IMG/VR virus record: IMGVR_UViG_3300050821_010343
Location: 1 to 22,974 of that record
Origin: a virus
Strand: one strand, 5' to 3'
DNA: 22,974 nucleotides
The notes beneath the pieces are model-generated. The model ran no database searches. It was not told the origin of the DNA and saw only the letters and a program-made list of their open reading frames with translations. The position numbers and the translations under genes were made by a program. Shown here one piece after another: positions 355 to 22,600 of this stretch (position 1 is its first letter; each line of letters starts with the position of its first letter).

Positions 355-927
355 ATGAATAACAAACTACTTATCGGTCTCGCACTTGTTGCGGGCATAG
401 TCGGAGGAGTGGTCGGGGTTTTTGCAGTAAATCAACTAACGTCGAGTCAGTTGGGGGGCGACTTTGCGGGCGGCATCACGCCGAGCAATCTGTTCAGCGC
501 GAACGTGAGCGCGAACAGCGTCACGCCGAACCTGTCGAACATGTACCTGAACGGCGGCATCAGCGTCGGCGGCACGGCGGCGAACAACCAGATCCCGGTG
601 GTCTACACGGCCACGACCGTGTATCCGGCATCGGCGGTGACGCTTGGTCCTATCCAGGCAACCACGTCGACCACGAGCACCGCGGTTTCGTTTACTGCTA
701 CCGGGTTTTCGGTCGGCGATGCGTGCGAAGTCGCGTATAACGGCAATGGCACTTCGACGACACCGTTCGGCGCAGATGCATTCATCACATCGGTAAGCGG
801 CAACGCGGCCACGGCGACGGTAACGTTCTGGAATGGCAATTCGGCCTCCCTGACCCTTACCGCTACGAGCACCGTAACCGGCGTATCGAGCACGCTCAAG
901 ACCACCTGCTTCCATACCGGCGTCTAG
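355..927 (+). CDS. Membrane-anchored Ser/Thr/Ala-rich protein, 190 aa
   Basis: The N-terminus is a short polar start (MNNK), then a hydrophobic glycine-rich helix at about residues 4-26 (LLIGLALVAGIVGGVVGVFA), read as a signal anchor. The rest is low-complexity and rich in Thr, Ser, Ala and Gly with alternating hydrophobics, so it is probably beta-structured and exposed. Two cysteines (in DACEV and TTCFH) could form a disulfide. No family is recognised. It sits directly upstream of the prohead protease. A membrane-anchored protein is unusual there, so it could be a virion surface protein or a lysogeny-expressed envelope protein. The start has at most a weak AAGG upstream. Confidence 0.6.
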   Translation: MNNKLLIGLALVAGIVGGVVGVFAVNQLTSSQLGGDFAGGITPSNLFSANVSANSVTPNLSNMYLNGGISVGGTAANNQIPVVYTATTVYPASAVTLGPIQATTSTTSTAVSFTATGFSVGDACEVAYNGNGTSTTPFGADAFITSVSGNAATATVTFWNGNSASLTLTATSTVTGVSSTLKTTCFHTGV

Positions 928-948
928 GTTCTCAACTATCACGAGGCA

Positions 949-2523
949 ATGGATGAACTACTCAAACAATTCACCAAAGACCTCGCCACTGACCTCAAAT
1001 CCCGCTTAACATCCCAAGAGACATCTGAGTTCATCAAGGCGACCAAAGCCTCCGGAGACGACCGGAGCTTTGAGGTCGTGATGAGCACCGCCGACGAGGA
1101 CCGCCAAGGCGACGCGCTCGACCAGTCCCGATGGGACCTGAAGTATTACACGATGAACCCGGTCGTCCTGTGGGCGCACAATTACCAGGGCTTCCCGATC
1201 GGCGTGATCGAGGACATCCAGATCGAGGGCGACAAGGCGGTCGCCACCGGGAAATTCGCGCCGGAAGGCGTGAATCCCGAAGCGGACCTGGCGTGCACGC
1301 TCTACCAGGAGAAGATCCTCCGCGCCGTTTCCCCCGGCTATATCCAAAATGACGACGGCACCCGCGAGCTCTTGGAAGTGAGCTTCTGCCCGGTTCCCGC
1401 GGGCCGCTATGCGCTCTCGTTGCGCCAGGTGGGCAAACTCGGCCTTTCCACCCGCGACCTCGTGACCAAGGGCTTTTTCTATGAAGAAAAGAAGGAGAAG
1501 TCGCCGCAGATCGGCGACCGCTGCGAGCTGGACGACGGGACGATCGGGATACTCGCAGATGACGACAAGAATCCCGGAACCCTCGTATGCGTCCCCTCGA
1601 AATCAAACAAATCCGAAACTATGAATAACGAACTGGAAAAGAAAATCAAAGCGGAACACGAACGGCACGGAAAGGCCGTCGGCAAGGCGATCGACGAGTT
1701 CGAAAAAGCAGCGTTGCCTGATGAGAAAAAAGCTCAAGGAGCCGACGAGTACGGCAAGGCGATCGACGAGTTCAAGTCCGCGATCGACGGCGAGCAGGCT
1801 GACCACCTCGACAAGTGCATGAAGGCGATTGACGAAAGCTACGAGCTGGAGGATCAGAAGCCGAAGAAATCGATCGACGAGTTCAAGTCCGACATGAAAG
1901 CCGAGCACCTGAAGCACGTCAAGGCAATCGACAAAGCGATCGACGGGTTGGAGGAAGTGGAGCATCCGGGCGACGGCGAGGATTGGAAGCCGGTTGAAGA
2001 TGCTATCCAGGAGTTCACCGAGAAAGCCCAGACTGAGCTCGCCCGCCATGAAAAGGCGCACGAGGAACTCATGCAGGAGCACGCGCCCGAGGCAGAGGAC
2101 GACGGAAAAGACGACAAGTCATTCGTTAAAACCGTGAAGGACGTATGCACCGGCAAACTTTCGGAAACCGAGATCGATGCCATTGTTAAAGCCGGCCGTT
2201 CCATTTCCGCGAAAAATCGAGACGCAATCGAGAAGGTCATCAAAGCCATCGAGGACCATCACACGGAGCATGGGAAAGCTACTGACGAAGTAACCGCGGC
2301 CCTGAAGGCCATCGTGTCTTCAGGCGACGGAGGGGAGGAACCGAAGCCGGATGAAAAATCCGGCGCGGCCCTGAACTCAAGGTCGAGCACCTCGGGAGCA
2401 TCTGCCGAGTTGGAGACTTATCTCTTCAACCAGCGGCTCGCGAGGCAGGTCAAAACTGCCGCAGAGGATGCTCTCAGACAGATCAATCAAAAGATCAAGC
2501 TGTTGCGCACTTCGGGCAGATAG
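949..2523 (+). CDS. Prohead protease with C-terminal scaffold-like region
   Basis: Residues about 40-160 match the HK97-type (U35, herpesvirus-assemblin fold) prohead serine protease that cleaves capsid and scaffold during maturation. His77 in VVLWAHNY and Ser145 in ELLEVSFCP sit where the catalytic His and Ser belong; VSPGY and the ending CPVPAGRYAL are typical. Residues about 186-217 look like a small SH3-like insert. From residue 225 the protein becomes highly charged and helical, with repeated KAIDEF-type motifs near 247, 270, 292, 308 and 325. This region resembles a fused scaffold. At 524 residues it is much longer than a bare protease of roughly 200. The major capsid gene follows 20 bases later. 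Confidence 0.85.
   Translation: MDELLKQFTKDLATDLKSRLTSQETSEFIKATKASGDDRSFEVVMSTADEDRQGDALDQSRWDLKYYTMNPVVLWAHNYQGFPIGVIEDIQIEGDKAVATGKFAPEGVNPEADLACTLYQEKILRAVSPGYIQNDDGTRELLEVSFCPVPAGRYALSLRQVGKLGLSTRDLVTKGFFYEEKKEKSPQIGDRCELDDGTIGILADDDKNPGTLVCVPSKSNKSETMNNELEKKIKAEHERHGKAVGKAIDEFEKAALPDEKKAQGADEYGKAIDEFKSAIDGEQADHLDKCMKAIDESYELEDQKPKKSIDEFKSDMKAEHLKHVKAIDKAIDGLEEVEHPGDGEDWKPVEDAIQEFTEKAQTELARHEKAHEELMQEHAPEAEDDGKDDKSFVKTVKDVCTGKLSETEIDAIVKAGRSISAKNRDAIEKVIKAIEDHHTEHGKATDEVTAALKAIVSSGDGGEEPKPDEKSGAALNSRSSTSGASAELETYLFNQRLARQVKTAAEDALRQINQKIKLLRTSGR
1621..2523 (+). CDS. Possible internal-start scaffold protein (300 aa)
   Basis: An in-frame ATG at codon 225 of the protease gene falls exactly where the protease part ends and the charged helical repeat region starts. 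The downstream context (ATGAATAACGAACTG) closely resembles the true gene start at 355 (ATGAATAACAAACTA). In phage lambda, scaffold Nu3 is made from an internal start in protease gene C, so the arrangement has precedent. There is no SD, but neighbouring structural genes lack one too. The alternative is that only the full-length protein is made and the scaffold is released by proteolysis. Confidence 0.35.
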   Translation: MNNELEKKIKAEHERHGKAVGKAIDEFEKAALPDEKKAQGADEYGKAIDEFKSAIDGEQADHLDKCMKAIDESYELEDQKPKKSIDEFKSDMKAEHLKHVKAIDKAIDGLEEVEHPGDGEDWKPVEDAIQEFTEKAQTELARHEKAHEELMQEHAPEAEDDGKDDKSFVKTVKDVCTGKLSETEIDAIVKAGRSISAKNRDAIEKVIKAIEDHHTEHGKATDEVTAALKAIVSSGDGGEEPKPDEKSGAALNSRSSTSGASAELETYLFNQRLARQVKTAAEDALRQINQKIKLLRTSGR

Positions 2524-2543
2524 ACCTATCACTCAACAAAAAA

Positions 2544-3788
2544 GTGGATAAAAAAGAAATCGTAGACGTAGTCTCCAAGACTGTCTCCGATGGGTTCAAC
2601 GACTTCATGGAGAAGTCCCTCGTTCCGACGATGGAAGAAATCTCCGTGAAGACCGCGCGCACGATCGTCGAGCAGGCCATGGTGGAGCGTGCCGTAAAAG
2701 GCCGCGACATCTCCGGCATGACGAGCGATCAGAAGATCGCCTTCGCCAAACAGGTGCAGGCCGTCTTCCGCGGCAACCGCGATGGAGCTTTGAAGGTGAA
2801 AGCCAACGAAGCGCTCATCGAAGAGCAGGATAATCGAGGCGGCTATCTGGTCGAACCGGAAGTCGCGGCGGCGATCCTTCGCATCGCGGCCTCAGTCGGT
2901 ACGATCCTCAAGCAGGCGCAGAACTGGCCGATGAAGACCGATGAATTGGGCATCCCCAATTACACCGGCTCCTTCCTCACCGGTTCCTACATCGGGGTCG
3001 ATCTCCCTGGCACCGTCACCGGACTCACGTTCGGCCAGGCGGTCCTCATCGCCCGCAAGTGGCAGCTCGCGTTCACCGTTGGCAACGACCTTTTGGCCGA
3101 TGCTTCGGTGCAACTCGCGGACTGGCTTATGGCGATGGCAGGCGAGGCGCTCGCGAACATGATCGACCAGCAGGGATTTGTCGGCGGCGGCACCGTCGCA
3201 GGCGTGACCTACGCGGGTCCGTTCGTCGGTATAATGAATACCGCGAACGTCAACACGTACTATCTCGGCAATTCCTCCACCTCGGGCAACACTGCGTACA
3301 GCAAGTTCGACCCGGTGAAGGATACGACGAACATCATCGCGCAGCTTGAAGAGTCGATCCTCGACGGCGCCGCATTCTACATGCACCGCACCGTCTGGGC
3401 GCTCTGCGCTCAGGTGCTCGCTTCGACGTCAGGCATTCCGTACTTGTTCTTGGGCGGGTTCGCAAAAGGTTCCGAACTCGACAAAGATCCGTACGGCGGC
3501 CCGATCGTCCCGGCGGGACACATGGGAGGCTTCCCGGTGTATACGAACCGGTGGCTCCCCCAGGCGTCGACCACGGCGGCAAACACGCCGTTCATGATCT
3601 TCGGCAACCTCAAGGCGTGCGCATTCGGCGACAAGGGCGACCTCCGCGTCGCGCAGTTCGAGTCAGGCTCGTTCGGCGGCAAGGAGATCGCGCTCGCAGA
3701 CCAGCGCGGCATCGTTTACAAGCACCGCCACGCGTTCGTGGTCGTGCTCCCCAAGGCGTTCGTGGTCATCAGCACATCGGTGTCCTAG
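2544..3788 (+). CDS. Major capsid protein, HK97 fold
   Basis: This 414-residue protein has the normal HK97-family layout. A charged helical N-terminal delta-like domain (about residues 1-95) is followed by the signature start of the mature capsid, GGYLVEPEVAAAILRI, near residue 99. The mid-region WQLAFTVGNDLLADASVQL and the C-terminal segment IVYKHRHAFVVVLPKAFVVI also fit. The delta-like domain is probably removed by the upstream protease. The start is a GTG (2544-2546) with no SD; it gives an N-terminus of charged helix, MDKKEIVDVV. The protein forms the icosahedral shell. A separate scaffold-like region in the protease means the phage may have two scaffold elements. Confidence 0.92.
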   Translation: MDKKEIVDVVSKTVSDGFNDFMEKSLVPTMEEISVKTARTIVEQAMVERAVKGRDISGMTSDQKIAFAKQVQAVFRGNRDGALKVKANEALIEEQDNRGGYLVEPEVAAAILRIAASVGTILKQAQNWPMKTDELGIPNYTGSFLTGSYIGVDLPGTVTGLTFGQAVLIARKWQLAFTVGNDLLADASVQLADWLMAMAGEALANMIDQQGFVGGGTVAGVTYAGPFVGIMNTANVNTYYLGNSSTSGNTAYSKFDPVKDTTNIIAQLEESILDGAAFYMHRTVWALCAQVLASTSGIPYLFLGGFAKGSELDKDPYGGPIVPAGHMGGFPVYTNRWLPQASTTAANTPFMIFGNLKACAFGDKGDLRVAQFESGSFGGKEIALADQRGIVYKHRHAFVVVLPKAFVVISTSVS

Positions 3789-3937
3789 TTCGCTTCAATC
3801 CGCTTCCGGCGCGCGCTGATTCCTCGGCGTGTGCCGGTTGCCGACCGGGAAAATAAACCCGCCCGTGAAGCGCGCAAGCGTTTCATCCCTTCCGATTAAA
3901 GTCGATGGAAGGCAGGGGCCAACACATTAGCAATCAC

Positions 3938-4600
3938 ATGCGTGGTTCCATTTATGACGATGTAGCGTTCCAGGGAGGCGTCAGCCTCGCTCCGCAATCG
4001 TTTTCGGGATCTTCGGCCGTCAACGGTAACACCGTGCCGACCACGGGCTTCACTGACGCCGTGATCCGCGCCTATGGCGCCGCTCCGAGCGGATCGCCGA
4101 CCGCCGCGTCCCTTGTCGTGACTCTTCAGGAGTCCGCGAACGGGACGACCGGCTGGACGAACGCGCTGGACAACACCGGCGTCGTGATCGGGTTCACCCT
4201 CAGCGCTCTTTTGAGCATTACGGGCAACACGACCAGCGGCTCCAACCAGGTGGCCTCCGTGAACACCACGACCGGCTTGTACGTCGGCCAGTCGGTGAGC
4301 GGCACCGGCATTCCCGCCGGGACCGTCATCACGGCCGTCAGCGTTGGTGCGACGACCTCGTCCATCACGTTGAGCGCGAACGCCACTGCTACGAACACCG
4401 GCACCGCTTTGACTCTCTCCACCGAGGGCGAAGCGCGCATCGAAGGCCTCAACCTTAATCGGAAGGCATTTCTTCGGGCGGTCATCACGCCGAGTTTCAC
4501 GGCCGGCACGTCCCCCGCGATCCTTGGCTATGCCGAGATCGTCCAGGGCGGTCCTGCCCAGCAGTTGCCCGTTCAGGGCTTGGCGACTTCGAACACCTAG
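3938..4600 (+). CDS. Probable capsid decoration or head-associated protein
   Basis: The frame is open from an ATG at 3905, but ATG 3938 is preferred. The 11 residues before it are not domain-like, and the CAC-ATG context matches neighbouring starts. The body is a beta-rich protein (VVTLQESANGTTGW, then RKAFLRAVITPSF and AILGYAEIVQGG), a pattern common to small head proteins encoded after the capsid gene. An extra beta module, about 4216-4420, interrupts it (GNTTSGSNQVASVNTTTG to TNTGTALTL). A related module occurs in the next gene. Its role as a decoration protein is inferred from position and style, not from a recognised family. Confidence 0.6.
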   Translation: MRGSIYDDVAFQGGVSLAPQSFSGSSAVNGNTVPTTGFTDAVIRAYGAAPSGSPTAASLVVTLQESANGTTGWTNALDNTGVVIGFTLSALLSITGNTTSGSNQVASVNTTTGLYVGQSVSGTGIPAGTVITAVSVGATTSSITLSANATATNTGTALTLSTEGEARIEGLNLNRKAFLRAVITPSFTAGTSPAILGYAEIVQGGPAQQLPVQGLATSNT

Positions 4601-4625
4601 CAATAGGCGCTCGAACCTTCGCTCC

Positions 4626-4675
4626 CATGGCACTTCCGGTGAGGTAAGTGCCATGTCGCGAGGGAAATTCCCTCG
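4626..4675 (+). promoter_or_regulatory. Two adjacent hairpins between head genes
   Basis: A 10-bp perfect stem (CATGGCACTT at 4626-4635 with AAGTGCCATG at 4646-4655, 10-base loop) is followed by a second near-perfect inverted repeat (CGAGGGAA at 4659-4666 with TTCCCTCG at 4668-4675). The second ends five bases before the start of the connector gene. The T-run after it is only three bases, so this is a weak terminator at best. It may be an attenuator or RNA-processing site separating abundant head mRNA from the neck genes. Confidence 0.4.
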
Positions 4676-4680
4676 TTTCA

Positions 4681-5550
4681 ATGACCACCACAGAAAAAGT
4701 CTATCCCTATGCTTTGACCACCTTGCAAAGGTGTAAGGACCGTCTCGACATCAAAATCGATGACCACGATGCGGTTTTGACGCGCATGATCAATTCCGTC
4801 ACCGACTATATCGAACGCGAATGCGGCAAGACCGGCCTCGAGTCGTTTCCGAATGACGGCCATTTCATACAAAAAACATACACGAACGAGGTCTATACGG
4901 CGCGCGGAAGGAAGCAGGAGCGCCTCGTGCTCCGCAATTCGCCCGTCACGTATCTCATCGTTACCGGCAATCTCACGTCAGGTTCCGCCACCGTTGCAAG
5001 CGCATCGCCGACGACCGGCATCGTGGCGGGAATGCCGCTCTACAACATCCAGGGCCTCTTTCCGCAGGGCACCACCGTTCTTTCTGCGACCACCAATTCG
5101 ATCACGATGAGCCAGCCGGCAAGCATCAGCATGACCGGCGCCGTGTTCGAGATCAGCGGCCTCATTTCCTTCCAGTGGCGCTCGGGCACGCCCAGCAATC
5201 CGAATTGGACGAGCTTCATCACCGACCAATATGAGCTTGACCAGATGGGACGCTCCGGCATCATCCGCGTCTACGGCTCGATTCCCGGTCTCTACAACAA
5301 CATGATCCGCGCGACCTACGTGGCTGGATACCCCGAGGACTGGCAGAACGCAGGCAACGGCGGCAGTCACCAGGTTCCCAGCGATCTCACGAACCTCTGC
5401 GAAAACCTCGTTGTCCGGATATACAAGCGGCGCCAGCTCGACGGTAAGGCAAGCGAAAACATCCAGGGCGCAACGACCGCCTGGCGCGATGCGCTCGACG
5501 GGTTCGACCAGAACATTATCAATAATTACCGCCGTCCAACCATCTTTTAA
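4681..5550 (+). CDS. Head-tail connector (gp6-like adaptor) with beta insertion
   Basis: The N-terminal part (YPYALTTLQRCKDRLDI, then HDAVLTRMINSVTDYIERECG) is the helical signature of phage gp6-like head-tail connector proteins, which form the ring below the portal. The C-terminal part (PSDLTNLCENLVVRIYKRR) completes the adaptor. The normal loop is enlarged by a beta module, about 4957-5156 (TGNLTSGSATVASASPTTG to SMTGAVFEISG), related to the module in the preceding gene. This makes the protein 289 residues, against roughly 100-200 for simple adaptors. ATG 4681 is chosen because the upstream in-frame ATG at 4648 lies inside the hairpin and adds non-domain residues. Confidence 0.8.
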   Translation: MTTTEKVYPYALTTLQRCKDRLDIKIDDHDAVLTRMINSVTDYIERECGKTGLESFPNDGHFIQKTYTNEVYTARGRKQERLVLRNSPVTYLIVTGNLTSGSATVASASPTTGIVAGMPLYNIQGLFPQGTTVLSATTNSITMSQPASISMTGAVFEISGLISFQWRSGTPSNPNWTSFITDQYELDQMGRSGIIRVYGSIPGLYNNMIRATYVAGYPEDWQNAGNGGSHQVPSDLTNLCENLVVRIYKRRQLDGKASENIQGATTAWRDALDGFDQNIINNYRRPTIF

Positions 5551-5554
5551 ACCA

Positions 5555-6025
5555 ATGGCCGATACGCAATTTCGCGTCACAATTCCCAACCTCCCGAAGC
5601 TCCAGGCCGCGCTTGCGGATTACCCCGCCATCTCCGCGCCGATCATCCAGCGCGCCATCGTGGCCGCACAGGCGATCCTCGCGAAGTTCACGACCGCCGC
5701 GACCGTTCCCATCCGTACTGGATACCTTGTGCAGAACTGGGCGTTCGAAGTGGGAAATCTCATGGCGCGATGGTATCCGAAGGCGAGCTACGCGCCCTAC
5801 GTCGAGTTCGGCACCGCGCCGCACGAGATCCGGCCGGTGAACAAGCGCGTGCTCGCGAACGCGCAGACGGGGACAATTTACGGCACGCTTGTCCACCACC
5901 CCGGAACCAAGGCAAATCCTTTCATGGAACGGATCGTCGCATCGGCACAGCCGGACATCGACGTGCTGTTCGGTACTGCGCTCGACCAGGTCGCCCAAGC
6001 TATCGCATCACAAGCCAATGAGTAA
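5555..6025 (+). CDS. HK97 gp10-like neck / tail-completion protein
   Basis: This 156-residue protein carries the typical gp10-family pattern. A helical N-terminus comes first (PNLPKLQAALADY), then an RTGYLVQNW motif, then the YAPYVEFGTAPHEIRPV signature and a C-terminal NPFMERIVASAQPDI. Members act at the head-tail joining interface. The ATG is four bases after the connector stop and the 3' end overlaps the next gene by eight bases, indicating translational coupling. An in-frame upstream ATG at 5411 lies inside the connector gene and is rejected. No SD is present. Confidence 0.82.
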   Translation: MADTQFRVTIPNLPKLQAALADYPAISAPIIQRAIVAAQAILAKFTTAATVPIRTGYLVQNWAFEVGNLMARWYPKASYAPYVEFGTAPHEIRPVNKRVLANAQTGTIYGTLVHHPGTKANPFMERIVASAQPDIDVLFGTALDQVAQAIASQANE

Positions 6026-6482
6026 CACCCCCGCCCAGAACATCAAGCAGTCAATCATCACCGATCTTCAGTCGCTCGTAGCGAGCGGCGTGTTGGGCTC
6101 GGTCGCCGCCGACGATTTCACAAAGCTCAACCCGCTCGACCGCACCTGGGGAGCATTCCCGGCCGCGCTCGTCATACCGCCGACCGTCGGCCAATCCGAG
6201 TATGAGGACACCGCGACGAACCTTCGCGAATACACATGGTACGTCATGGTGGTCACGACCCCGGACAACCTGCCGGCAACCGATCCCACGTATCTCGAAA
6301 GCCTGATTGATAGCACACTCCAGGCGTTTGATAACGACGTGACCTTGCAGGGCATGGCAGTCGGCGGCGTGTCGCCGGCAGTGCTCGACCCTCCGGGGCC
6401 TGTGAGTAGCGGCTCAGTGACTTATGTCGTTTACTACATTACACTTAAAGCACGGACCCTTGTCCCCGGATTGGTTCAATAA
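6018..6482 (+). CDS. Tail terminator-like protein
   Basis: The 154-residue product starts within the last codons of the gp10-like gene (ATGAGTAA overlap). It has a mixed alpha/beta pattern: a helix NIKQSIITDLQSLV, strands AFPAALVIPP and YTWYVMVVTT, a helix LESLIDSTLQAF, and a final strand SVTYVVYYITLKAR. That order resembles small siphovirus tail terminator proteins, which cap the tail tube before head joining. Position between the neck and tail-tube genes supports the assignment. Sequence identity to a named family is not obvious by eye. Confidence 0.6.
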   Translation: MSNTPAQNIKQSIITDLQSLVASGVLGSVAADDFTKLNPLDRTWGAFPAALVIPPTVGQSEYEDTATNLREYTWYVMVVTTPDNLPATDPTYLESLIDSTLQAFDNDVTLQGMAVGGVSPAVLDPPGPVSSGSVTYVVYYITLKARTLVPGLVQ

Positions 6483-6499
6483 ACTAACTCATCACATAC

Positions 6500-6754
6500 A
6501 TGGATATTCCAGATGTCAGCAACAAAATGATCGATGGGGATTCAGTCAATAACAAGGATGTGCAGCCCACGACCGCTATCGCGGCGTCCGTCCTTGAGAA
6601 CGATTATTTCTACCCCGAGGCGAACGGCTATAAGTCAATCACGATCCGCGCGGCCACGCTTCAGGACGCCCAGAAGATCTATCTCGCAAAACGGATACCG
6701 GTGAAGCCGGAACCTGAAAAGGTCGAAGCAGCATCAGAAAACAATAAAGAATAA
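6500..6754 (+). CDS. Small hypothetical tail-module protein, 84 aa
   Basis: A short acidic protein sits between the terminator-like gene and the tail-tube gene, with the next start two bases after its stop. A central segment (NGYKSITIRAATLQDAQKIY) looks like one strand followed by a helix. The C-terminus is charged and probably disordered (KPEPEKVEAASENN). No family is recognised. Conserved position and tight spacing make it a real gene, perhaps a small accessory of tail-tube assembly. Confidence 0.6.
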   Translation: MDIPDVSNKMIDGDSVNNKDVQPTTAIAASVLENDYFYPEANGYKSITIRAATLQDAQKIYLAKRIPVKPEPEKVEAASENNKE

Positions 6755-6756
6755 TC

Positions 6757-7761
6757 ATGTCAGTAAAAGGAATCGGCAGACTATTTTCCTTCGGAGTGGC
6801 CGTGGAGGACACTCGCGGAACCGCAGAATCGACCGCGGAGTATTGGCTTCCGTTCGATGAGCTGAGCTTCGATGAGAAGTTCGAAAACGCCATCGCCGAC
6901 CAGTCCGTAGGCGTCGTCGAGAACGCGATCAACGAATACCGCGTCAAGAATTACGCCGACGGAACCTTCAAGGTCCCGATGATGGACCGGAGTACCGGCG
7001 AGCTGTTCTATAGCCTGTTTGGCGGGTACGCGGTCGGAACGCACGCCGGGGAATCGATCGTCTACGACCATACGTTTACCGTCGGAGAGTCGGCACAGCA
7101 CCAGTCGCTCACCTTCTTCATCCACGATCCGCTGTCCGGTACGGACTATTCGCACGCGAACGGCGTCATCCATAAGATGGAGCTCGACGCGGAGCTGAAG
7201 AAGTTCGTCACGCTCTCGCTTTCCGCGCGGGCGCAGAAGGGTGTTTCGCAGTCGAGCTTCAGCCCGTCGATATTGTCGGAGAACCGCTTCATCCCGCAAT
7301 ACATGACGTTCAAGTACGCGACGACCGCGGCCGGTCTATCCGGCGCGACGGCAATCGCTCTCAAGAGCATCAAACTCACGGTGGACGAGAATATCGAAGA
7401 TCAGGAGGTGCTCGGCAACGTCGCCCCCGCGGACTTCCTCAACAAGGAATTCAAGGTCGAGGGCCAACTCGAATGCATCTATCAGAACCTGACGGACTTC
7501 AAGAACGTCGCCCTTGCGACGCCGAACGTCGGCCAGGCGATGCTCATCGATCTCGTAAACAGTGATGTCACGCTCGGCAGTGCGGCACATCCCGAATTGA
7601 AGATCACGCTTAATCAGGTGTTCTTCTCTGAGTACAGCAGACCGATCAAGGTCAAGGATCTCGTGTATCAAACCGTCAAGTTCCGTGGGACTTATAAGCT
7701 CGCGGACTCGGCAATGATCACCGCAGTTTTGACCAACTTGGTCGCGACCTACGCTTCGTAA
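6757..7761 (+). CDS. Major tail tube protein
   Basis: This 334-residue protein fits the siphovirus tail-tube family: an N-terminal GIGRLFSFGVAVEDTRGT, an extended beta-rich body, repeated strand motifs such as KMELDAELKKFVTLSLSARA, and a late IKSIKLTVDENIEDQEVL-like strand pair. Tail-tube proteins stack as hexameric rings around the tape measure. Position, two bases after the small upstream gene and directly before the frameshifted chaperone genes, is the canonical place for this protein. The start has no SD. Confidence 0.82.
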   Translation: MSVKGIGRLFSFGVAVEDTRGTAESTAEYWLPFDELSFDEKFENAIADQSVGVVENAINEYRVKNYADGTFKVPMMDRSTGELFYSLFGGYAVGTHAGESIVYDHTFTVGESAQHQSLTFFIHDPLSGTDYSHANGVIHKMELDAELKKFVTLSLSARAQKGVSQSSFSPSILSENRFIPQYMTFKYATTAAGLSGATAIALKSIKLTVDENIEDQEVLGNVAPADFLNKEFKVEGQLECIYQNLTDFKNVALATPNVGQAMLIDLVNSDVTLGSAAHPELKITLNQVFFSEYSRPIKVKDLVYQTVKFRGTYKLADSAMITAVLTNLVATYAS

Positions 7762-7819
7762 AGAAAAAGAGCGGTCGTCAGCCGCTCCTCGTGTAACAAA
7801 AATCCTCACCATAACAACA

Positions 7820-8125
7820 ATGTCAGATCGCGAAACGAAAGAGATTGAGACACCGCTCGGACACAAAGCGGTCGTGAAAACATTCCTCACGGGCCGCGAA
7901 GTGGATGCCATCCTTGGCGATCTCTTCAAGGATCAGCAGTCGGGCGAGAAGCCCAGCGTCCCGATGACGCTCGGCATCCAGCGGAACAACAAGCTCATCG
8001 AAGCCGCCGTGGTTTCCTTCGATGGAAGCGCGGAAAATATCTTTGAGCGCGTGCAGGATCTTCCCGCGTCGGAAAAGGCGTTCATCCTCAAGCAGGTTCA
8101 GGAACTCGCAGGCGGAAATTTTTAG
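7820..8125 (+). CDS. Tail assembly chaperone, short form (gpG-like)
   Basis: The 101-residue zero-frame product has the usual acidic, largely helical character of the short tail-assembly chaperone (FLTGREVDAILGDLF, then IFERVQDLPASEKAF). Chaperones of this class bind the tape measure and recruit tail-tube subunits; they are not in the finished virion. The frame ends at TAG 8123-8125, directly after a slippery AAATTTT, so a fraction of ribosomes should continue in the -1 frame. The start ATG follows an A/C-rich leader (CCATAACAACA) with no SD. Confidence 0.85.
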   Translation: MSDRETKEIETPLGHKAVVKTFLTGREVDAILGDLFKDQQSGEKPSVPMTLGIQRNNKLIEAAVVSFDGSAENIFERVQDLPASEKAFILKQVQELAGGNF

Positions 8126-8325
8126 AGGGCGAAGAGCACCGCTGGCACACCTTCTTCGCCTTCGGCCGTGCCGAGCTCCATCCGGTCGAAAGGGGCGCAC
8201 TCGTCTGCCGCGAGTTCGGCTGGACGTGGGATGAATACCAAACGCAACCGACGTGGTTCATTCGCTCCATCCTCGCAATGCTCCGCGAGGAGGCGGAGGA
8301 ATCCAACCGCAGGGCATCCAAATAG
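7820..8325 (+). CDS. Tail assembly chaperone, frameshift fusion (gpG-T-like)
   Basis: Joining the 101 zero-frame codons to the -1 frame from base 8122 gives a 168-residue fusion that ends at TAG 8323-8325. The 67-residue extension reads as a coherent protein (HRWHTFFAFGRAELHPVERG, then REFGWTWDEY and WFIRSILAMLREEAEE). It has no ATG of its own in a useful position. This matches the conserved G/G-T expression scheme of siphovirus tails, where a -1 programmed frameshift sets the ratio of the two proteins. Its place between tail tube and tape measure is exactly as expected. Confidence 0.85.
8116..8122 (+). promoter_or_regulatory. -1 programmed frameshift slippery site AAATTTT
   Basis: In the zero frame the heptamer reads A-AAT-TTT, the X-XXY-YYZ form, followed at once by the TAG stop of the short chaperone. 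It is an A/T-only run in an otherwise GC-rich gene. The -1 frame stays open for 67 codons with chaperone-like sequence. The stop codon in the A site after the slip probably adds pausing. Confidence 0.85.
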
Positions 8326-8409
8326 CGCACCCTTGCCAAATCACCCATTTTGAGGCATTACTTAAAGTAAGACATAAAGGTCGCAAAACCGAAAATACCC
8401 ACCTCACCA

Positions 8410-8547: not shown

Positions 8548-8562
8548 CCAATATCAATCGCA

Positions 8563-10281: not shown

Positions 10282-10284
10282 TCC

Positions 10285-11757
10285 ATGGCGAACCCGATTG
10301 TAATTAAGGACAATGGAGCTGATATTTCATCATCGGTCGATTGGAAATCGATCGACGCCACGTCTGTCCTTACCAAGGAGAACGCGTCATTAAAATTTTC
10401 CGTGCGCCAAGGAGTCGGCCAAACGTACCCGGCGATCACCGTTCCCGCCATTGGCGACACGATCCAGCTTTATGATTCGACCGGGATCATCTTCGGCGGT
10501 ACGGTCACCGAGGTGGAAACGACGATCCAGGGCCTTGTCATGACGAGTCAGGTGACGGTGTCGGATTGGGGATATACCTTTGACGGCATTCTCATCAAAA
10601 AGAACTACGCGATGATGGACCCGGCAGACATCGTGGAAGACATCGTTGACCAGGCAGACCCCACCGGCTCGAAGGGTTTCACTACGAACCACGTCCAGCG
10701 CGGCAATTTCCTCGTGCCGTCCATCAAATTCAATTACCAGCAGCCGACCAAATGCCTCCAGTCGCTCGCAAAGCTCATCGGCTGGGACTGGTACATCGAT
10801 CCGACCAAGGACATCCATTTCTTCCTGGGCGACGTTGAGAACGCCGTCGGCGAAGGCGGCGTGGCACCCATCACCGTCGATGCGACGAGCGGGAAGATCG
10901 AATGGAACTCCCTCGACGTGGACATCAACCTGCAGAATATGCAGAACAGCGTCTTTGTGATCGGCGGGACCTACGTGAAGACATTCACGGCTTTAAATAC
11001 CCCCGACAGTTTCCCGACCGATGGCACGACCCAGTTTTTCACCACGTCGTATCCGTACGACGTGAGTTCCATCACCGTGACCCTCGACGGCGTCGCACAG
11101 ACGGTCGGTACCGCGAACCAGACCGCACCCGGTTCCGTCCAGGTCCTCTACAACGACGCCCAGCGGTGGATTCAGTTCACCGCCGGCGCGCCCGCGAACG
11201 GCCACACGGTCAAGGTGTACGGCAACGCGAAAGTGCCGATCGTCGCGCACGCCGGCAACGCGGCGAGCATCGCCACGTATGGCGAATATCAGACGGTGGT
11301 CGTCGATGCCAAGATCACGTCCGTCCCGGAAGCACAGCAGCGCGCGCAAGCGGCCGTGCTCCAATTCGGTCACCCGGTCTATGACATAAAGTTCAACACC
11401 CTCGTCGCGGGATGCGCGATCGGCCAGGCGATCACCGTAAATCTCACCGCCTTCGGGATCTCGAACAAGCAGCTCGTCATTAAGCGTGTCGAAGCGACCG
11501 GATACGTGCCCGGCGCCAATGGCCAGCTTGAATATCAGGTCGAATGCATCGGGTCGGACAATGTGACCTTCACCGATCTCATGACCACCATCCTCCAGGA
11601 GGAGGCGACCCAGACGCCGGTGGATGATTCGACGGTCAATGAGAACCTTGAGGTCGTCGGCGAAACGGTGACGCTTACCGAAGCGGTCTCGGCGTCGTCC
11701 GGAACCAAGCCGTATGCGTGGGGCAGTTTCAGGTGGGGTTTCTTCACATGGAACTGA
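10285..11757 (+). CDS. Tail hub / distal tail protein
   Basis: This 490-residue protein directly follows the tape measure, the standard place for the distal tail or hub protein. It is beta-rich. The segment SLAKLIGWDWYIDPTKDIHF near residues 163-182 resembles hub proteins of the gene-D or gp27 type. An inserted strand-rich region lies at about residues 232-310 (FPTDGTTQFFT, then HTVKVYGNAKVP). The C-terminus is aromatic (WGSFRWGFFTWN), as in several phage hub proteins. It probably forms the ring from which the fibre proteins project. The precise hub family is not established by eye. Confidence 0.7.
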   Translation: MANPIVIKDNGADISSSVDWKSIDATSVLTKENASLKFSVRQGVGQTYPAITVPAIGDTIQLYDSTGIIFGGTVTEVETTIQGLVMTSQVTVSDWGYTFDGILIKKNYAMMDPADIVEDIVDQADPTGSKGFTTNHVQRGNFLVPSIKFNYQQPTKCLQSLAKLIGWDWYIDPTKDIHFFLGDVENAVGEGGVAPITVDATSGKIEWNSLDVDINLQNMQNSVFVIGGTYVKTFTALNTPDSFPTDGTTQFFTTSYPYDVSSITVTLDGVAQTVGTANQTAPGSVQVLYNDAQRWIQFTAGAPANGHTVKVYGNAKVPIVAHAGNAASIATYGEYQTVVVDAKITSVPEAQQRAQAAVLQFGHPVYDIKFNTLVAGCAIGQAITVNLTAFGISNKQLVIKRVEATGYVPGANGQLEYQVECIGSDNVTFTDLMTTILQEEATQTPVDDSTVNENLEVVGETVTLTEAVSASSGTKPYAWGSFRWGFFTWN

Positions 11758-11826
11758 CTTCTCCACAGCCGCCGCTATGGTCTTGCAGTGTTTTCGCCGC
11801 TATGATGTAAATAATCCCCACATTCC

Positions 11827-12384
11827 ATGATTACCAACAACGAGGCTCTTTCGGTGTCAGGGAAGATCATCGTCCGGTCACATCCGGCCGGAACCCTGCA
11901 TCTCTATCAGTCGCTCGCCGGTTTGGGGCGGCTCGATCTCGCGCGTGAACTCCTGAAGGACGGCAAGATCGAAGTCGAGCAGAAGAATCTCATCGTCGAT
12001 TCCTCGAATTACGGCAAAGACATCCTCGTCCAGTACCTCATCAGCGCGTACACCGGATCGAATCCGTTTCCCTTGGGGATAGCCTGGGGAGAAATAGGAA
12101 CGGGGAATACCACGCCGGCCGCCGGTGATACCGCGCTCACGACGCCCACGAACCGCGCTACGGTCGCCTATGCGGCCGACCTTGGCTTCAACGAAGCGCA
12201 ACTCCAATTCTTCTTCCCGGACGCTTCTCTCGCGAACGGTACGTACTACGAGTGTGGCAGCTTCATCGGCGGATCGTCGACAATCGGAACCGGCAATATG
12301 TTCAATCACGCGCTCTTTAGTTCACCATATTCGAAATCAAGCGGAACAGATACGACCTTAGAAATTGACATCACCATTTCATGA
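11827..12384 (+). CDS. Tail fibre / baseplate protein, 185 aa
   Basis: After a helical N-terminal part (LYQSLAGLGRLDLARELLKD), the protein has the pattern of short phage fibre proteins. It includes NLIVDSSNYGKDILVQYLIS, then IAWGEIGTGNTTPAAGDTAL with a following Arg, and a later ECGSFIGG. That arrangement recurs in baseplate-proximal fibre segments. Its stop overlaps the next start in ATGA (12381-12384), so the two are coupled and probably belong to the same structure. No SD precedes the start (CACATTCC-ATG). Confidence 0.65.
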   Translation: MITNNEALSVSGKIIVRSHPAGTLHLYQSLAGLGRLDLARELLKDGKIEVEQKNLIVDSSNYGKDILVQYLISAYTGSNPFPLGIAWGEIGTGNTTPAAGDTALTTPTNRATVAYAADLGFNEAQLQFFFPDASLANGTYYECGSFIGGSSTIGTGNMFNHALFSSPYSKSSGTDTTLEIDITIS

Positions 12385-13775
12385 GAAGCAGACCGATCGG
12401 CAATGGCATGACGGGGAATGCGAGCCAGCTTGATTCGGCGCGCGACGACGCCCGCGGCGGAAGCTTTCTGTTAGCCCATCAGCAGCTCGGCGTGCTTGCG
12501 CTCGGCACGAATCCGTCGAATAACCAGGTTGTTCCGATCGTCATCAACGGTACGACGATCACCGTCACCTTCGTTACCTCGATCGGCTCGACTGCAAATA
12601 ACATCCTCATCGGCGCGAGTGCCACCGCGAGCGTCACAAATCTTGTGAATTTCTTGCGGCGTCCCGACGTTTCCAACTCCAACCAAGTAGCGGCATCATC
12701 GGCAAATCAGGCGCTCTTGCAATACGTAGGATGGGCATGGCCGGGATCTTCGACAAATATCGTTCCATTTTCACTAAACAAAAACGCGAACGAGAACACC
12801 GGGCCGCTCACGAGTTTTAATATCACGGGAATCACCGTCACGAGCGGCACGTGGACCGCGCAGACGATGCAGCTCTATGTCGAGGACGGGACCTATTACA
12901 TCGGAACCACGCGGGTTCTTTTCACGGGCGGCTCGACGCCTACCGTAACGGCTCCCGTGTCTCATCCGCGCATCGACGTGCTTACCGCCGATTCCTCCGG
13001 CACGCTCGCGTGGACGACAGGTTCCGAAAATGTTTCGCCGACTGCCCCCGCATATCCGGCTGGAAAGGTGCCCATCTGCGAACTCTATAATGTCGTTTCG
13101 GAAACGGCGCTCTATGACAACGAAGATCAGCAGGCGAGCCAAGGATACATTTTAAATGACGTGCGGCCGTTCTCGACGCCGGTCTATATCGGCAGCACCG
13201 CGCAGGTCGCAAGCGGATTGTTCATTCTTGATCCTGGCGGCGAAGTCCAGGGTGATCTTTTGTATTACAACGGCGCCGCATGGGTGCGGCTCGCGGCCGG
13301 TACCAGCGGACAAGTGCTCATCACGAACGGCGCGAGTGCCAATCCATCATGGTCCACATCGCCCGCCGCGGACATTATCACCGGATCGGCCACCGGCACC
13401 AACTACACCACCACGAGCACATCGCTCGTCGATATGGACGCAACGAACCTGAAGCGCACCCTGAGCGGCCTTACGGTCGGAGATTATCTGTACGTCACGG
13501 TCTCCGGGTTCGGCAACGCCGGCGCGGGTGGTTCCACCGATACCGTCCAGCTCACCGACGTCACCAACTCGGCGTCGATCCTTCAATTCAATCTTTCAAA
13601 TTCCTCCGCGAGCTTCAGTGGGTCCGGCTGGTACAAGATCCCGTCCACCACGGTGCAGTTCTCGCTCCAATTCAAAACCAATTCCGGCACGACCTCGATT
13701 TCAAACTCTAACGTCGGTATCGCACTTGGCGGACAATTGCCATTTGTACAGTGGCAGATAATTCATACTTCATAA
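12381..13775 (+). CDS. Tail fibre / receptor-binding protein candidate, 464 aa
   Basis: The protein is Ser/Thr/Asn-rich and beta-structured throughout, with little helix. The N-terminal region contains NGTTITVTFVTSIGSTANN, a module common in phage fibre-like proteins. The middle contains AAGTSGQVLITNGASANPSW, the typical repeat of trimeric fibre shafts. The C-terminal 130 residues form a separate beta domain (SGFGNAGAGGSTDTVQL to GGQLPFVQWQII) that could bind the receptor. It is the last large virion gene and is coupled by ATGA to the previous one. The receptor is unknown. Confidence 0.7.
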   Translation: MRSRPIGNGMTGNASQLDSARDDARGGSFLLAHQQLGVLALGTNPSNNQVVPIVINGTTITVTFVTSIGSTANNILIGASATASVTNLVNFLRRPDVSNSNQVAASSANQALLQYVGWAWPGSSTNIVPFSLNKNANENTGPLTSFNITGITVTSGTWTAQTMQLYVEDGTYYIGTTRVLFTGGSTPTVTAPVSHPRIDVLTADSSGTLAWTTGSENVSPTAPAYPAGKVPICELYNVVSETALYDNEDQQASQGYILNDVRPFSTPVYIGSTAQVASGLFILDPGGEVQGDLLYYNGAAWVRLAAGTSGQVLITNGASANPSWSTSPAADIITGSATGTNYTTTSTSLVDMDATNLKRTLSGLTVGDYLYVTVSGFGNAGAGGSTDTVQLTDVTNSASILQFNLSNSSASFSGSGWYKIPSTTVQFSLQFKTNSGTTSISNSNVGIALGGQLPFVQWQIIHTS

Positions 13776-13778
13776 TTC

Positions 13779-14102
13779 ATGAGCGACGAGCGTACACAAG
13801 TTCCGAATATCCAGGTCAATAACACCCCGACAGCAGACCATGATCTACTGATCCGGCTTGACACCAAATTCGACATTATGGCCGGCAAGTTCGACGACCT
13901 TTCTGAGAACCTGGTCGGCCGCGTCGATTTGCTCGAAAAGGAAAGTGTTGAATTGCGCACGAAGCTGAAGGAAGCGCAGGATGATGTGGGCGAGGCGAAG
14001 AAGGATATTAAATCACTCAACCGCTACCTGTGGATGGCCATTGGTGCAGTGGGTTTACTCCAGCTCTACCTGTTCTATCGCCAAGTGTTCCCGCACTCGT
14101 AA
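13779..14102 (+). CDS. Coiled-coil protein with C-terminal membrane helix (XhlA-like)
   Basis: The 107-residue product has a helical, heptad-like central region (residues about 30-80, including DLLEKESVELRTKLKEAQDD) and a single C-terminal membrane helix (YLWMAIGAVGLLQLYLFYR). Coiled coil plus C-terminal anchor at the tail-lysis junction is the layout of XhlA-type phage lysis accessory proteins. The sequence itself is not close enough to name the family. It begins three bases after the fibre gene stop, without an SD. Confidence 0.6.
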   Translation: MSDERTQVPNIQVNNTPTADHDLLIRLDTKFDIMAGKFDDLSENLVGRVDLLEKESVELRTKLKEAQDDVGEAKKDIKSLNRYLWMAIGAVGLLQLYLFYRQVFPHS

Positions 14103-14235
14103 TCCCCAATCCCCTCTTCAAGACGTCACTGTTTTCGGGCTTTTTTTGCGGTGGGGGAGTGCTCTGGTAGGGGAGGGGAGTGGCCTTATGCACAACTGGA
14201 CAAATACGCATAATGCCCCATGATTAAAGAAAAGC
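14103..14235 (+). other. Intergenic G-rich segment with possible -10 box
   Basis: The stretch contains a seven-T run (about 14143-14149) without a clear preceding stem, then a G-rich tract with GGGGG, GGGG and GGGG blocks (about 14151-14181). Next comes CATAAT at about 14210-14215, roughly 20 bases before the peptidase start, which could be a -10 element; no good -35 lies 17 bases upstream. It may separate transcription of virion genes from the lysis-like genes. No gene is seen. Confidence 0.25.
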
Positions 14236-15132
14236 ATGGATGTAACTCTGCCCGTGAACTTGGGGGGCCTTGAGAGGAAGCCCGACAACCGCGATATTCA
14301 GCTCGGCGCCGTTCAGGCGCCTGTTTCCATTCCGTCTACTTTCATTCCGGATATGACCTGGTTCGTCCGGAACTATCAGGGACAGACCGCGTTCTGCGGA
14401 GAACACGCCGGCACTCACTTCAAGGCGATCATTGAGCATCAGGACTCGCCGACGACCAACCAGCGCTTCTCCCCGCGCTACGGCGTGATCAAGTTAAAGA
14501 CTCCTGCGTCGCCCGTCTATGACGGCTTCGGGGTCGATGCCGGCACGACGCTGACCGCGATCTTTAAATGGCTGCAGAAATGCGGTGCGGCGAGCTACGA
14601 GCCGTTGGAGGACAACGTGTTTCTCTCGGAAGCGGCGTATGTCGATCCATCAGTCGTGACTCAGGACATCGATACCGACGCCGCGAGCCACCAGATCGCT
14701 TCCTATGCGTTCGATGCGTTGACCTATGAATCGTTATGCCAGGCGATTTACCAATCGAAGGCGGTCATCATTCTCATCAAATGCGACGACGGGTTCTGGG
14801 GCACGCAAACGCCGACCTTCACCACTCCCACGTACGGCCACTTTGTCACCGCATACGCTTACGACGAAAATGGCATTTGGGTGATCGATTCCGCGGACCC
14901 GAATATCGGATACGTCTTCAAGCATATTGCCACGGAATACATCACCCCGACGTTCTTCAAAGAATCCGGCACCGCGGTTGACGTCCCTCCGGCCGTGAAG
15001 CAGGCGCTCACGACGGCCGCGCCGATTCCCCCGAGCGTCAATCAGGCGATCTCCGCCGGCCAGCTCAATTTGGCAGAACAAATCCTCCAAGATATTGAGG
15101 CAGCCCTCGCTCTGATAAAGAAAGAACTCTAA
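14236..15132 (+). CDS. Papain-like (C1-type) cysteine peptidase
   Basis: The N-terminal half carries NYQGQTAFCGEHAG, which aligns with the papain active-site block: Gln48 as the oxyanion residue and Cys54 as the nucleophile, six residues apart as in papain. His202 in TYGHFVTAYAYDENG and Asp218 in WVIDSADPN occupy the catalytic His and Asn positions; Asp for Asn is atypical. A proline-rich linker (about 250-266) leads to a helical tail (QAISAGQLNLAEQILQDIEA). There is no signal peptide. It sits where siphoviruses usually encode the endolysin, next to a holin-like gene. It may act on the host envelope, on a defence protein or in virion maturation; the substrate is unknown. Confidence 0.75.
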   Translation: MDVTLPVNLGGLERKPDNRDIQLGAVQAPVSIPSTFIPDMTWFVRNYQGQTAFCGEHAGTHFKAIIEHQDSPTTNQRFSPRYGVIKLKTPASPVYDGFGVDAGTTLTAIFKWLQKCGAASYEPLEDNVFLSEAAYVDPSVVTQDIDTDAASHQIASYAFDALTYESLCQAIYQSKAVIILIKCDDGFWGTQTPTFTTPTYGHFVTAYAYDENGIWVIDSADPNIGYVFKHIATEYITPTFFKESGTAVDVPPAVKQALTTAAPIPPSVNQAISAGQLNLAEQILQDIEAALALIKKEL

Positions 15133-15159
15133 AGGTCGCGCAATAAATTAAACATCCCA

Positions 15160-15411
15160 ATGCTTCAACAACTCAGTGCAACAACGAAACTCGTATTGCA
15201 CGGGATCGTGAACATCGGCGGGAACACGGCAATCATCACCTTGTTGCCCTCGTTTCTTCCGTCATCCTGGGTCGCCATCGTGTTCCTTGTGTTCAACGTG
15301 GCCCAAGTGCTCTACGCATTCACTGACCCGTCCTATGCGGTCCATCTGATCCAGACCGGTCAGATCGCCGCTCCTCAGACGACCGCCTCCTCCACATCGA
15401 AGCCGCAGTAG
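15160..15411 (+). CDS. Holin-like membrane protein, 83 aa
   Basis: Two hydrophobic segments are visible, about residues 11-30 (LVLHGIVNIGGNTAIITLLP) and 36-56 (SWVAIVFLVFNVAQVLYAFT), with a short turn between them and a hydrophilic C-terminus rich in Thr, Ser and Gln. Size, topology and position after the peptidase fit a two-helix holin that permeabilises the inner membrane. Holins are too diverse to confirm by eye. The start has no SD. Confidence 0.55.
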   Translation: MLQQLSATTKLVLHGIVNIGGNTAIITLLPSFLPSSWVAIVFLVFNVAQVLYAFTDPSYAVHLIQTGQIAAPQTTASSTSKPQ

Positions 15412-15542
15412 AACTCCCAACTCTGGAGACTGCGAACGGGTTTATTGACCTTTACTCAGTAGTGGTCTCCGGAATTGGGCGCTTTGAACGTTACGACCTA
15501 ACCAGGTCGGGCGCCCGCCAGCTCTTTGTCATGGAGGTCAGT
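15412..15542 (+). promoter_or_regulatory. Leader of the DUF932 cassette, with inverted repeats
   Basis: A TTGACC box lies at 15445-15450 but no fair -10 follows at normal spacing. Two inverted repeats are visible: GGAGAC (15425-15430) with GTCTCC (15465-15470), and a hairpin CGACCT-AACC-AGGTCG at about 15495-15510. They could form an operator or a leader hairpin. This is where the translation signals change from SD-less to strong SD. Confidence 0.3.
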
Positions 15543-15806
15543 ATGAAGCGGTTTCTCGTCTTCTTCTTACTCGCTCTTTTCTGGACGCTGCTCTGCATCG
15601 CCCAAGACCGTGAGGTGCGGCAACTGTTCTCCATTGGGGGACAGCACTACGCTTTCACGGGGTCTGTCGAATCCTGGAACGAACTCCAGAAACAGATCAA
15701 ACTCAACAATCTTCTCTGCGAAATCATGACGGACGAAGCGAAGGGCTTACACCCGTACCAAAAGATCAAGCTCGCCAAAAGACTGGCGAAAGAACTGGAG
15801 GAGTAA
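15543..15806 (+). CDS. Small exported or membrane protein, 87 aa
   Basis: The start at 15543 is set by a GGAGG at 15533-15537, five bases upstream; an upstream in-frame ATG at 15462 has no such site. The N-terminus is a clear signal peptide or anchor (MKRFLVFFLLALFWTLLCIA), possibly cleaved after the Ala. The rest is charged and mostly helical, ending KLAKRLAKELEE. It overlaps the SD of the DUF932 gene, whose ATG follows its TAA directly. No family is recognised. Confidence 0.7.
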   Translation: MKRFLVFFLLALFWTLLCIAQDREVRQLFSIGGQHYAFTGSVESWNELQKQIKLNNLLCEIMTDEAKGLHPYQKIKLAKRLAKELEE

Positions 15807-16511
15807 ATGACCTTGATCGCCCACACCGGCGCGGAACTCATGACCCGCGATGCGCTCGCGCAGATTCTTCCGCCCGAACGCACCGCAACGCACCAACCGA
15901 TCGCACACATCACGCTCGTCAATTCCATCCTCGAATCGCTTTCCTTCCGCCACATCAACGTAGTCAAGGAGGAATATGCGGTTTCGGCTGATGGCATGAA
16001 GCTCTTTGGCTGCCTCGATCTCGAGACGATGGGCGACGGCTTCCGCTTTGCCCTCGGGCTTCGGAACGCGAACGACAAATCGATGCGCCTCGGCCTTGTG
16101 GTCGGTGTAAGGGTCCTGATTTGCGACAATATGGCCTTTTCCGGCGACTTCGAGCCGGTTCTCGCGAAGCACAGCAAGCACTTCGACCTTAATTCCGCTC
16201 TCGCAATCGGCATGGAAGCAATGCAACGCAACTTCAAGCCGATGGCGGACCAGATCCAAAACTGGAGGACTGCGCAGATCACCGATGGACAAGCGAAGGA
16301 AGTCATCTACCGGGCGTTCATCGAAGACCAGCTTGATGCGCCGAAGCACCTGGCCCGCGTCGTCCACAAAGAATACTTTGAGCCGACCATTCCCGACTTC
16401 GCCGCGCGCACCCGTTTTTCGCTCAACAATGCGTTCACGAGCGCGTTCAAACTGCTCGACCCGATCCCGCAGTTTAAGGCGACGGCGAGCTTAGGCGAGT
16501 TCTTCCACTAG
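15807..16511 (+). CDS. DUF932-family protein
   Basis: This 234-residue protein carries the conserved DUF932 core: RHINVVKEEYAVSADGMKLF, then GLRNANDKSMRLGLVVGVRV, CDNMAFSGDF and the C-terminal LDPIPQFKATASLGEF. Relatives occur in phages, plasmids and bacterial chromosomes. Their function is not established; they are sometimes discussed with DNA mobility or anti-restriction loci. Close relatives are common in Acidobacteria as I recall, supporting the host guess. GGAGG at 15797-15801 sits five bases before the ATG, which abuts the previous stop. Probably intracellular, with no signal or membrane helix. Confidence 0.85.
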   Translation: MTLIAHTGAELMTRDALAQILPPERTATHQPIAHITLVNSILESLSFRHINVVKEEYAVSADGMKLFGCLDLETMGDGFRFALGLRNANDKSMRLGLVVGVRVLICDNMAFSGDFEPVLAKHSKHFDLNSALAIGMEAMQRNFKPMADQIQNWRTAQITDGQAKEVIYRAFIEDQLDAPKHLARVVHKEYFEPTIPDFAARTRFSLNNAFTSAFKLLDPIPQFKATASLGEFFH

Positions 16512-16519
16512 GAGGAAAC

Positions 16520-16729
16520 ATGAATCCCCTTATGAAAGAAAGGATCGTCGCAATCTTCGCCCAGCTAGATGTGGACGAAGGAAATAGGAAGCGTGCCGAG
16601 GAAGACCCTGAAGCGTGCATCCTGTCTTTATTGACACACGTGGAGGACGAACTTCGGCACTACTCATTCGTCTTTCGGGATGCCGCCTACACGGAAAACG
16701 TGAACGCGGCACGGACACTACTCGGCTAG
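16520..16729 (+). CDS. Small hypothetical protein, 69 aa
   Basis: A GGAGG at 16511-16515, overlapping the DUF932 stop, places the start at 16520. The product is acidic and helical (RIVAIFAQLDVDEGN, then ACILSLLTHVEDELRHYSF), without membrane segments or cysteine motifs. It is not a recognised family, but the SD and tight spacing make it a real member of the DUF932 cassette. It may be a partner of the DUF932 protein. Confidence 0.7.
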   Translation: MNPLMKERIVAIFAQLDVDEGNRKRAEEDPEACILSLLTHVEDELRHYSFVFRDAAYTENVNAARTLLG

Positions 16730-16746
16730 CCACTTAGGAGGAAGCC

Positions 16747-16959
16747 ATGCTCACGTACTGTGATCGTTGCTTCGGCCTCGTCCAACCGGACGACGGCACC
16801 ACCATCCACATCGAGGCGAAGGGGATTAAACACTCTTTTACCTATCACAACAGAAACGGATCCGATTGTTTGGCTCACAAAATCCGCGAGTTAAAAATCT
16901 GGTATCAGGAGGAGAAAAAGCATGAAGCAGTGCCCGAAGTGCCGGAAGCAAGTAGCTGA
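16747..16959 (+). CDS. Small protein with N-terminal CxxC, 70 aa
   Basis: AGGAGG at 16736-16741 fixes the start. The protein opens with YCDRCFGLVQPDD, a single CxxC that could be half a zinc site, with a third cysteine in GSDCLAHKI and histidines nearby that could complete it. The C-terminus is charged and probably disordered. Its 3' end overlaps the next gene by 38 bases, showing close coupling. Confidence 0.65.
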   Translation: MLTYCDRCFGLVQPDDGTTIHIEAKGIKHSFTYHNRNGSDCLAHKIRELKIWYQEEKKHEAVPEVPEASS

Positions 16960-17083
16960 CGGCGCGATCATTTGTCCCACCTGGGCGTGTACCCATGTTT
17001 TCATGGACACGCTCGCGAAAGGCGATGTGGCGCCCATCCACGCGACGTATCCCGCCGGAGCCGTTCGACCGACCGACATCTAG
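16922..17083 (+). CDS. Small zinc-ribbon protein, 53 aa
   Basis: The start ATG lies within the previous gene, nine bases after an AGGAGG at 16907-16912. The product begins KQCPKCRKQVADGAIICPTWAC style, with CPKC followed about 13 residues later by a second cysteine pair spaced CxxxxC; this is a probable zinc ribbon. It is the last gene of the cassette and ends nine bases before a terminator. Confidence 0.65.
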   Translation: MKQCPKCRKQVADGAIICPTWACTHVFMDTLAKGDVAPIHATYPAGAVRPTDI

Positions 17084-22505: not shown

Positions 22506-22600
22506 AGCGAGCCTCCAGGTACATTCAGAGGACGTTATTTTCTCATGTTCTGTAAGTGATTGTAAACAGGAAAGTTATTGTGGTGGCGGGGGACGGGATC
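22506..22600. other. Prophage attachment-site region (attL/attR)
   Basis: The integrase start, an AT-rich stretch with short repeats (GTTATT twice; TGTAA twice; CTGT and ACAG flanking) and the 3' end of tRNA-Met are juxtaposed. This is the usual attachment junction, with the core probably inside the tRNA T-arm and acceptor. The exact core cannot be set because the other junction lies left of the window. Confidence 0.55.

Follow-up and report, generated by a model that had tools for sequence, protein, structure and literature searches.

Can the genes of a single temperate phage be divided between two ways of starting translation? The question is raised by a virus record of 22,974 bases (IMGVR_UViG_3300050821_010343; the window, analyzed over its whole length), for which a preliminary description had proposed that virion and lysis-type genes lack Shine-Dalgarno (SD) sequences, that a short gene group further right and the integrase carry them, and that the two initiation regimes meet abruptly at about 15.4 kb. 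The window has all the features of an HK97-fold temperate siphophage: an HK97-type capsid, a tape measure, a tyrosine integrase and a probable tRNA attachment site (Table 1). Profile matches between 2544 and 12384 comprise capsid protein, head-tail adaptor, neck/tail completion, minor tail protein, tail protein and tape measure. The integrase gene adjoins tRNA-Met, and the right end of the record runs into host DNA that includes this tRNA and the beginning of a kdsB gene (NF003952). A gene on the (-) strand (19043-20074) encodes an Mrr-type restriction endonuclease domain (PF04471, 3.1e-8) and is probably a defence or accessory gene.

Table 1. Coordinates of the features discussed, numbered from the first base of the window; dG in kcal/mol.
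Feature	Coordinates	Strand	Remarks
Rightward lytic operon without SDs, 18 genes, left edge cut off	355..15411	+	virion and lysis-type genes
Major capsid protein, GTG start, leader CTATCACTCAACAAAAAA	2544..3788	+	phrog_10, 5.6e-26; TIGR01554
Head-decoration-like gene, start corrected	3938..4600	+	start codon and upstream GGCAGGGGCCAA as in relatives
Head-tail adaptor	4681..5550	+	phrog_442
Tail protein (phrog "minor tail protein"), leader AACAATAAAGAATAATC	6757..7761	+	phrog_290
Tape measure protein, leader AACCAATATCAATCGCA	8563..10281	+	phrog_991, 2.7e-34
Lysis-region gene without SD, conserved in the lineage	14236..15132	+	14 members, median dG 0.4
Strong hairpin, probable terminator or processing site	15412..15480	+	-30.8 kcal/mol, z -3.8
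First gene of SD-bearing unit, GGAGG	15543..15806	+	dG -10.0
DUF932 protein, SD GGAGG, SD kept in relatives	15807..16511	+	PF06067 just under cut-off
Three small genes, AGGAGG each	16520-16729, 16747-16959, 16922-17083	+	dG -10.2 to -10.3
Tyrosine integrase, SD GGAGG	21456..22505	-	phrog_1, 7.3e-48; dG -9.3
tRNA-Met	22581-22657	-	probable attachment site

We scored SD strength as the energy of the duplex formed with the canonical anti-SD ACCUCCUUA. The reported absence of SDs from the starts at 355 to 15160 holds: none of the 18 reaches -4.4 kcal/mol at a functional spacing and, over 20 nt, 83% score -1 or weaker. G accounts for 6% of their leaders (positions -18 to -6) versus 26% of the whole record. 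The strong SDs described at 15543, 15807, 16520, 16747 and 16922 are likewise present (-9.3 to -10.3, with the integrase at -9.3), so that the tally in the record is 0/18 for the lytic operon versus 6/6 for the five-gene unit and the integrase. SDs are not universal on the right side: the genes at 17145, 17615 and 18699, whose starts are uncertain, have none. The head-decoration gene probably starts at 3938 rather than 3905, because relatives have GGCAGGGGCCAA...ATG at that place, and moving the start leaves the SD result unchanged. The G-rich GGCAGGGGCCAA (3911-3922), approximately 14-25 nt before this start and conserved in several relatives, is not an SD and forms a clear exception to the G-poor leaders. 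Two other leaders contain SD-like stretches: GAGGCA lies directly before the ATG at 949, a spacing unusable for an SD, and GAGGG lies ~20 nt upstream of 4681, within a hairpin and too far away to act as one. This GAGGG...CCCTC hairpin (4656-4680), immediately 5' of the head-tail adaptor start, is found in many relatives.

Set against the host rate, the SD lack of the record has P ~0.001. A strong upstream match is present at only 4.8% of the ATG triplets in the record, the chance level, and a single record is therefore not decisive; it is weak evidence, and the proof has to be comparative, with the relatives deciding.

A search with the capsid protein yielded 71 viral loci and 6 genome loci, which share between 96% and 25% identity with it. 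Most of the ~75 related loci are likewise SD-poor, and leaders poor in both G and SDs occur in nearly all of them, at 37-63% GC. Homologous starts align, and almost all virion genes are without an SD in the relatives as well (major capsid starts in 60 loci, median dG 1.2). Among the genome loci, the closest is a prophage (G001) in tRNA-Met on a 232 kb contig of an Acidobacterium MAG. A 23-nt att repeat (116013-116035 and 168104-168126) bounds the region, which therefore has the appearance of a whole prophage, 52.1 kb long, within host DNA. Near its far end lies an ATPase gene (G001:C67:160923-162167) that by eye has the look of a TraD/VirD4-type coupling protein. In a capsid tree of 71 rows with midpoint rooting, members from Acidobacterium, Erythrobacteraceae and Peribacteria-labelled contigs fall in one well-supported set. 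The bins of the Patescibacteria-labelled contigs may be wrong. In the branch of the Erythrobacteraceae prophage, leaders of L076, L061 and L163 often have CCT or GCT directly before the ATG, a local habit unlike the A/C-rich leaders of the acidobacterial branch.

For family statistics we combined 20 long viral contigs, the Acidobacterium MAG prophage and the record itself (22 in all). Genes were called without SD information, with imperfect start calls, and their proteins were grouped into families. The 43 operon families (548 genes) form one rightward unit spanning replication/recombination, small terminase, portal, capsid, tail and lysis, with a median dG of 0.1 and not one family led mainly by SDs. 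At functional spacing, 1.1% of the 548 genes have a strong SD, compared with 70% in the SD-bearing phage families. Over 20 nt the frequencies are 3.5% for the operon, 12.3% for internal ATGs of the same phages, 35% for host genes and 61% for the other phage families, and strong SDs in the operon are thus below the chance level given by internal ATGs. In 19/19 testable genomes, operon leaders contain less G than the other leaders (Wilcoxon 4e-6). The trait is less clear in some distant members (G318, G319 and G320; leader G 20-25%, 16-38% strong). The terminase large subunit family was excluded from the operon statistics because the AAGGAGG that abuts the ATG in most members (for example, at oriented position 17355 in G304) has a spacing of zero and its letters lie within the end of the small-subunit gene.

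The SD-bearing families comprise DUF932 and its small neighbours, the integrase, and a set of mainly leftward genes that includes a leftward primase-like family (median dG -6 to -10); the DUF932 SD is retained even in distant relatives. The proposal of two initiation regimes within one phage is supported, and the split is conserved in relatives. The preliminary description had assigned the SD-free regime to the late genes; these do lack SDs, but the term is too narrow, because early, replication and packaging genes of the operon are also without SDs in the long relatives. Its suggestion that the modules differ in origin is weakened: many relatives keep the SDs of DUF932 and the integrase, and most accessory genes within the operon have none.

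Within the operon region, accessory rightward genes are SD-poor (11% strong), whereas interleaved leftward genes are SD-richer (23/68 strong, and 88% among the few conserved ones; Fisher 3e-9). The split thus appears to follow the direction and unit of transcription, as read from the sequence, rather than place. The change at 15.4 kb is indeed abrupt, but it looks like the boundary of a transcription unit, at the hairpin 15412-15480, and not like a regional change. Several relatives have strong hairpins, some of them terminator-like, between the lysis genes and DUF932. No σ70 promoter was recognized in this interval, which says little for Acidobacteriota. In the oriented contigs G304 and G305, the DUF932 SD region AGGAGAATTC has an exact complement, GAATTCTCCT, further upstream; it is possible that the SD is masked and released there, which would make this a candidate regulatory leader.

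The composition of the operon leaders changes with distance from the start codon. G falls from ~22-29% at -25 to -20 to ~8-14% at -16 to -7 and then recovers slightly, with A and C increased; the depletion is confined to about -18 to -1. The leaders are A/C-rich rather than U-rich, the first codons of operon genes are also A-rich and G-poor, and folding around the starts is weaker than in other families (-7.6 vs -13.3 kcal/mol). The depletion peaks in intergenic gaps of 11-30 nt (5% G, 0/100 strong), and starts behind gaps >100 nt are still SD-free (3% strong, n=120). AATCA, TAATC and ATCAC are mildly enriched, and no strong motif shared among the operon leaders was found beyond such mild enrichments.

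Other accounts of this signal were considered and rejected. Pairing of the leaders with other parts of 16S rRNA gave no site clearly better than in shuffled leaders. Misplaced starts would leave SDs at other in-frame positions, but alternative in-frame starts rarely have a strong one (4.5% each), and no family has one consistently. Leaderless mRNA is opposed by the distribution of TAnnnT, which occurs ≤21 times at any position in the 548 leaders with no clear -10 peak, and by the many operon starts inside or adjoining upstream genes. GGAG is not specifically avoided within coding sequence either, where it stands at 0.85 of expectation, like GGTG (0.84) and CCTC (0.80).

The host does not share the habit. 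Host genes are SD-richer, as had been anticipated: strong SDs occur in 31% on the Acidobacterium contig (functional spacing) and in 41% in Parerythrobacter (over 20 nt), and the operon (1.1% and 3.5%, respectively) does not show this mix. In Parerythrobacter lacustris, the structural operon of the prophage is mostly SD-free in a genome in which 41% of host genes are strong. The 16S tail carries the canonical anti-SD in an acidobacterium genome related to the Acidobacterium MAG. Unrelated phages use SDs, including Tunturi_2, 3 and 4 of Acidobacteriota (mostly weak in Tunturi_4), RcapNL, RcapMu, HK97, THSA-485A and an Oceanotoga phage. SD-free initiation most likely belongs to the phage lineage and not to the host.

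We consider it probable that translation of the lytic mRNA begins independently of SDs, at unstructured A/C-rich leaders, and that selection maintains this. Almost every gene for replication, packaging, virion and lysis, encoded in one rightward unit, would start without SD pairing, each behind ~20 nt of A/C-rich, G-depleted and weakly structured RNA. The 30S subunit would reach the start codon through local openness, perhaps with S1, and through the initiator tRNA, and the genes outside the unit (the DUF932 unit, the integrase and the opposite-strand genes) would use ordinary SDs. Selection may keep the leaders SD-free to avoid competition with SD-bearing mRNAs and dependence on SD differences between hosts. 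We infer that the operon genes form one transcript, that ribosomes enter it independently of SDs, and that this state is upheld by selection.

An alternative origin, which we think unlikely, is a legacy of an SD-poor ancestral host (Bacteroidota-like or Patescibacteria), with the leaders kept after a move to new hosts and the SD genes added later. The Bacteroidota phage phi10:1 does have SD-free early and late genes, and relatives occur in Patescibacteria-labelled contigs. However, G depletion is sharp at 55-60% GC and strong SDs are rarer than at internal ATGs, which indicates a state that is maintained and not only inherited, and DUF932 holds its SD even in distant relatives.

The avoidance of SDs throughout the operon of one genome, with SDs kept outside the lytic unit, would also be expected if a phage factor disabled SD initiation. 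The phage would then alter the translation apparatus at induction, by masking, cutting or removing the anti-SD, by SD-directed mRNA cleavage in the manner of T4 RegB, or with a new initiation factor; host and lysogeny mRNAs bearing SDs would be shut off while the immune SD-free operon was translated, amounting to a lysis switch at the level of translation. We regard such a switch as improbable. RegB provides a precedent in spirit (PMC3014915), and its shut-off of SD-bearing early mRNAs would likewise separate SD from non-SD transcripts in one infection, but T4 late transcripts can retain GGAG and are simply resistant to RegB (PMC3014915), and GGAG is only mildly rare in coding regions here. 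No RegB match was found in the 22 contigs by a search that had no working positive control. No bS21 or S1 domain was found in the phage contigs, which may be incomplete; the host genome did give matches. For a 66-residue protein conserved in the operon, the predicted fold (pLDDT 77, pTM 0.42) is too weak to compare.

Translational coupling, in which ribosomes reinitiate at the next start of packed genes and SDs become dispensable, is in keeping with the many gaps that are <30 nt or overlapping. It is less likely still: it predicts neutrality and not G depletion, genes behind gaps >100 nt are SD-free too, and the HK97 and Rhodobacter phages, which are also packed, use SDs. Since the depletion persists at gaps >100 nt, simple coupling does not explain it. 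Finally, the A/C-rich leaders with their mild enrichments could bind an A-rich-RNA regulator of the Hfq/Crc type and so keep lytic genes silent during lysogeny, but this is very improbable, as a strong common motif is absent and the lytic operon of a temperate phage is expected to be silent by transcription anyway.

The question of whether, and when, SD sites matter is usually approached through whole genomes or with reporters. Here both regimes lie side by side, split by unit and conserved across host phyla, which makes the lineage a natural experiment. The conserved split suggests that protein synthesis is started in a manner specific to the transcript, and it indicates that SD use can belong to the virus rather than to the host. 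In phages of this kind, gene finders trained on SDs may put starts in the wrong place. The literature searched, with partial coverage, held no report of an SD split inside one phage; a known initiation mode appears to be used in an operon-restricted and lineage-conserved manner that we did not find described.

HK97 and Rhodobacter RcapNL have similar head and tail genes in one late cluster, but 44-50% of their late genes have strong SDs, unlike the operon here. Cellulophaga phage phi10:1 resembles it more closely in its G-poor leaders and in having 0% strong SDs among the early and late genes tested. Bacteroidota rarely use SDs (PMC3155529), which fits the SD lack of phi10:1; its leaders are A/T-rich in an AT-rich genome, whereas those described here are A/C-rich at 55-60% GC in SD-using hosts. 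Genes without SDs and with unstructured leaders occur in many bacteria (Nakagawa et al., 2017, PMC5397173), and Caulobacter uses SD-independent initiation for most of its genes (PMC4117421). The operon shares with these bacterial genes the absence of an SD, weak structure at the start and biased composition on both sides of it. In those bacteria, however, the habit is genome-wide or scattered, whereas here it is that of one phage operon, and other genes of the same phage are strongly SD-led.
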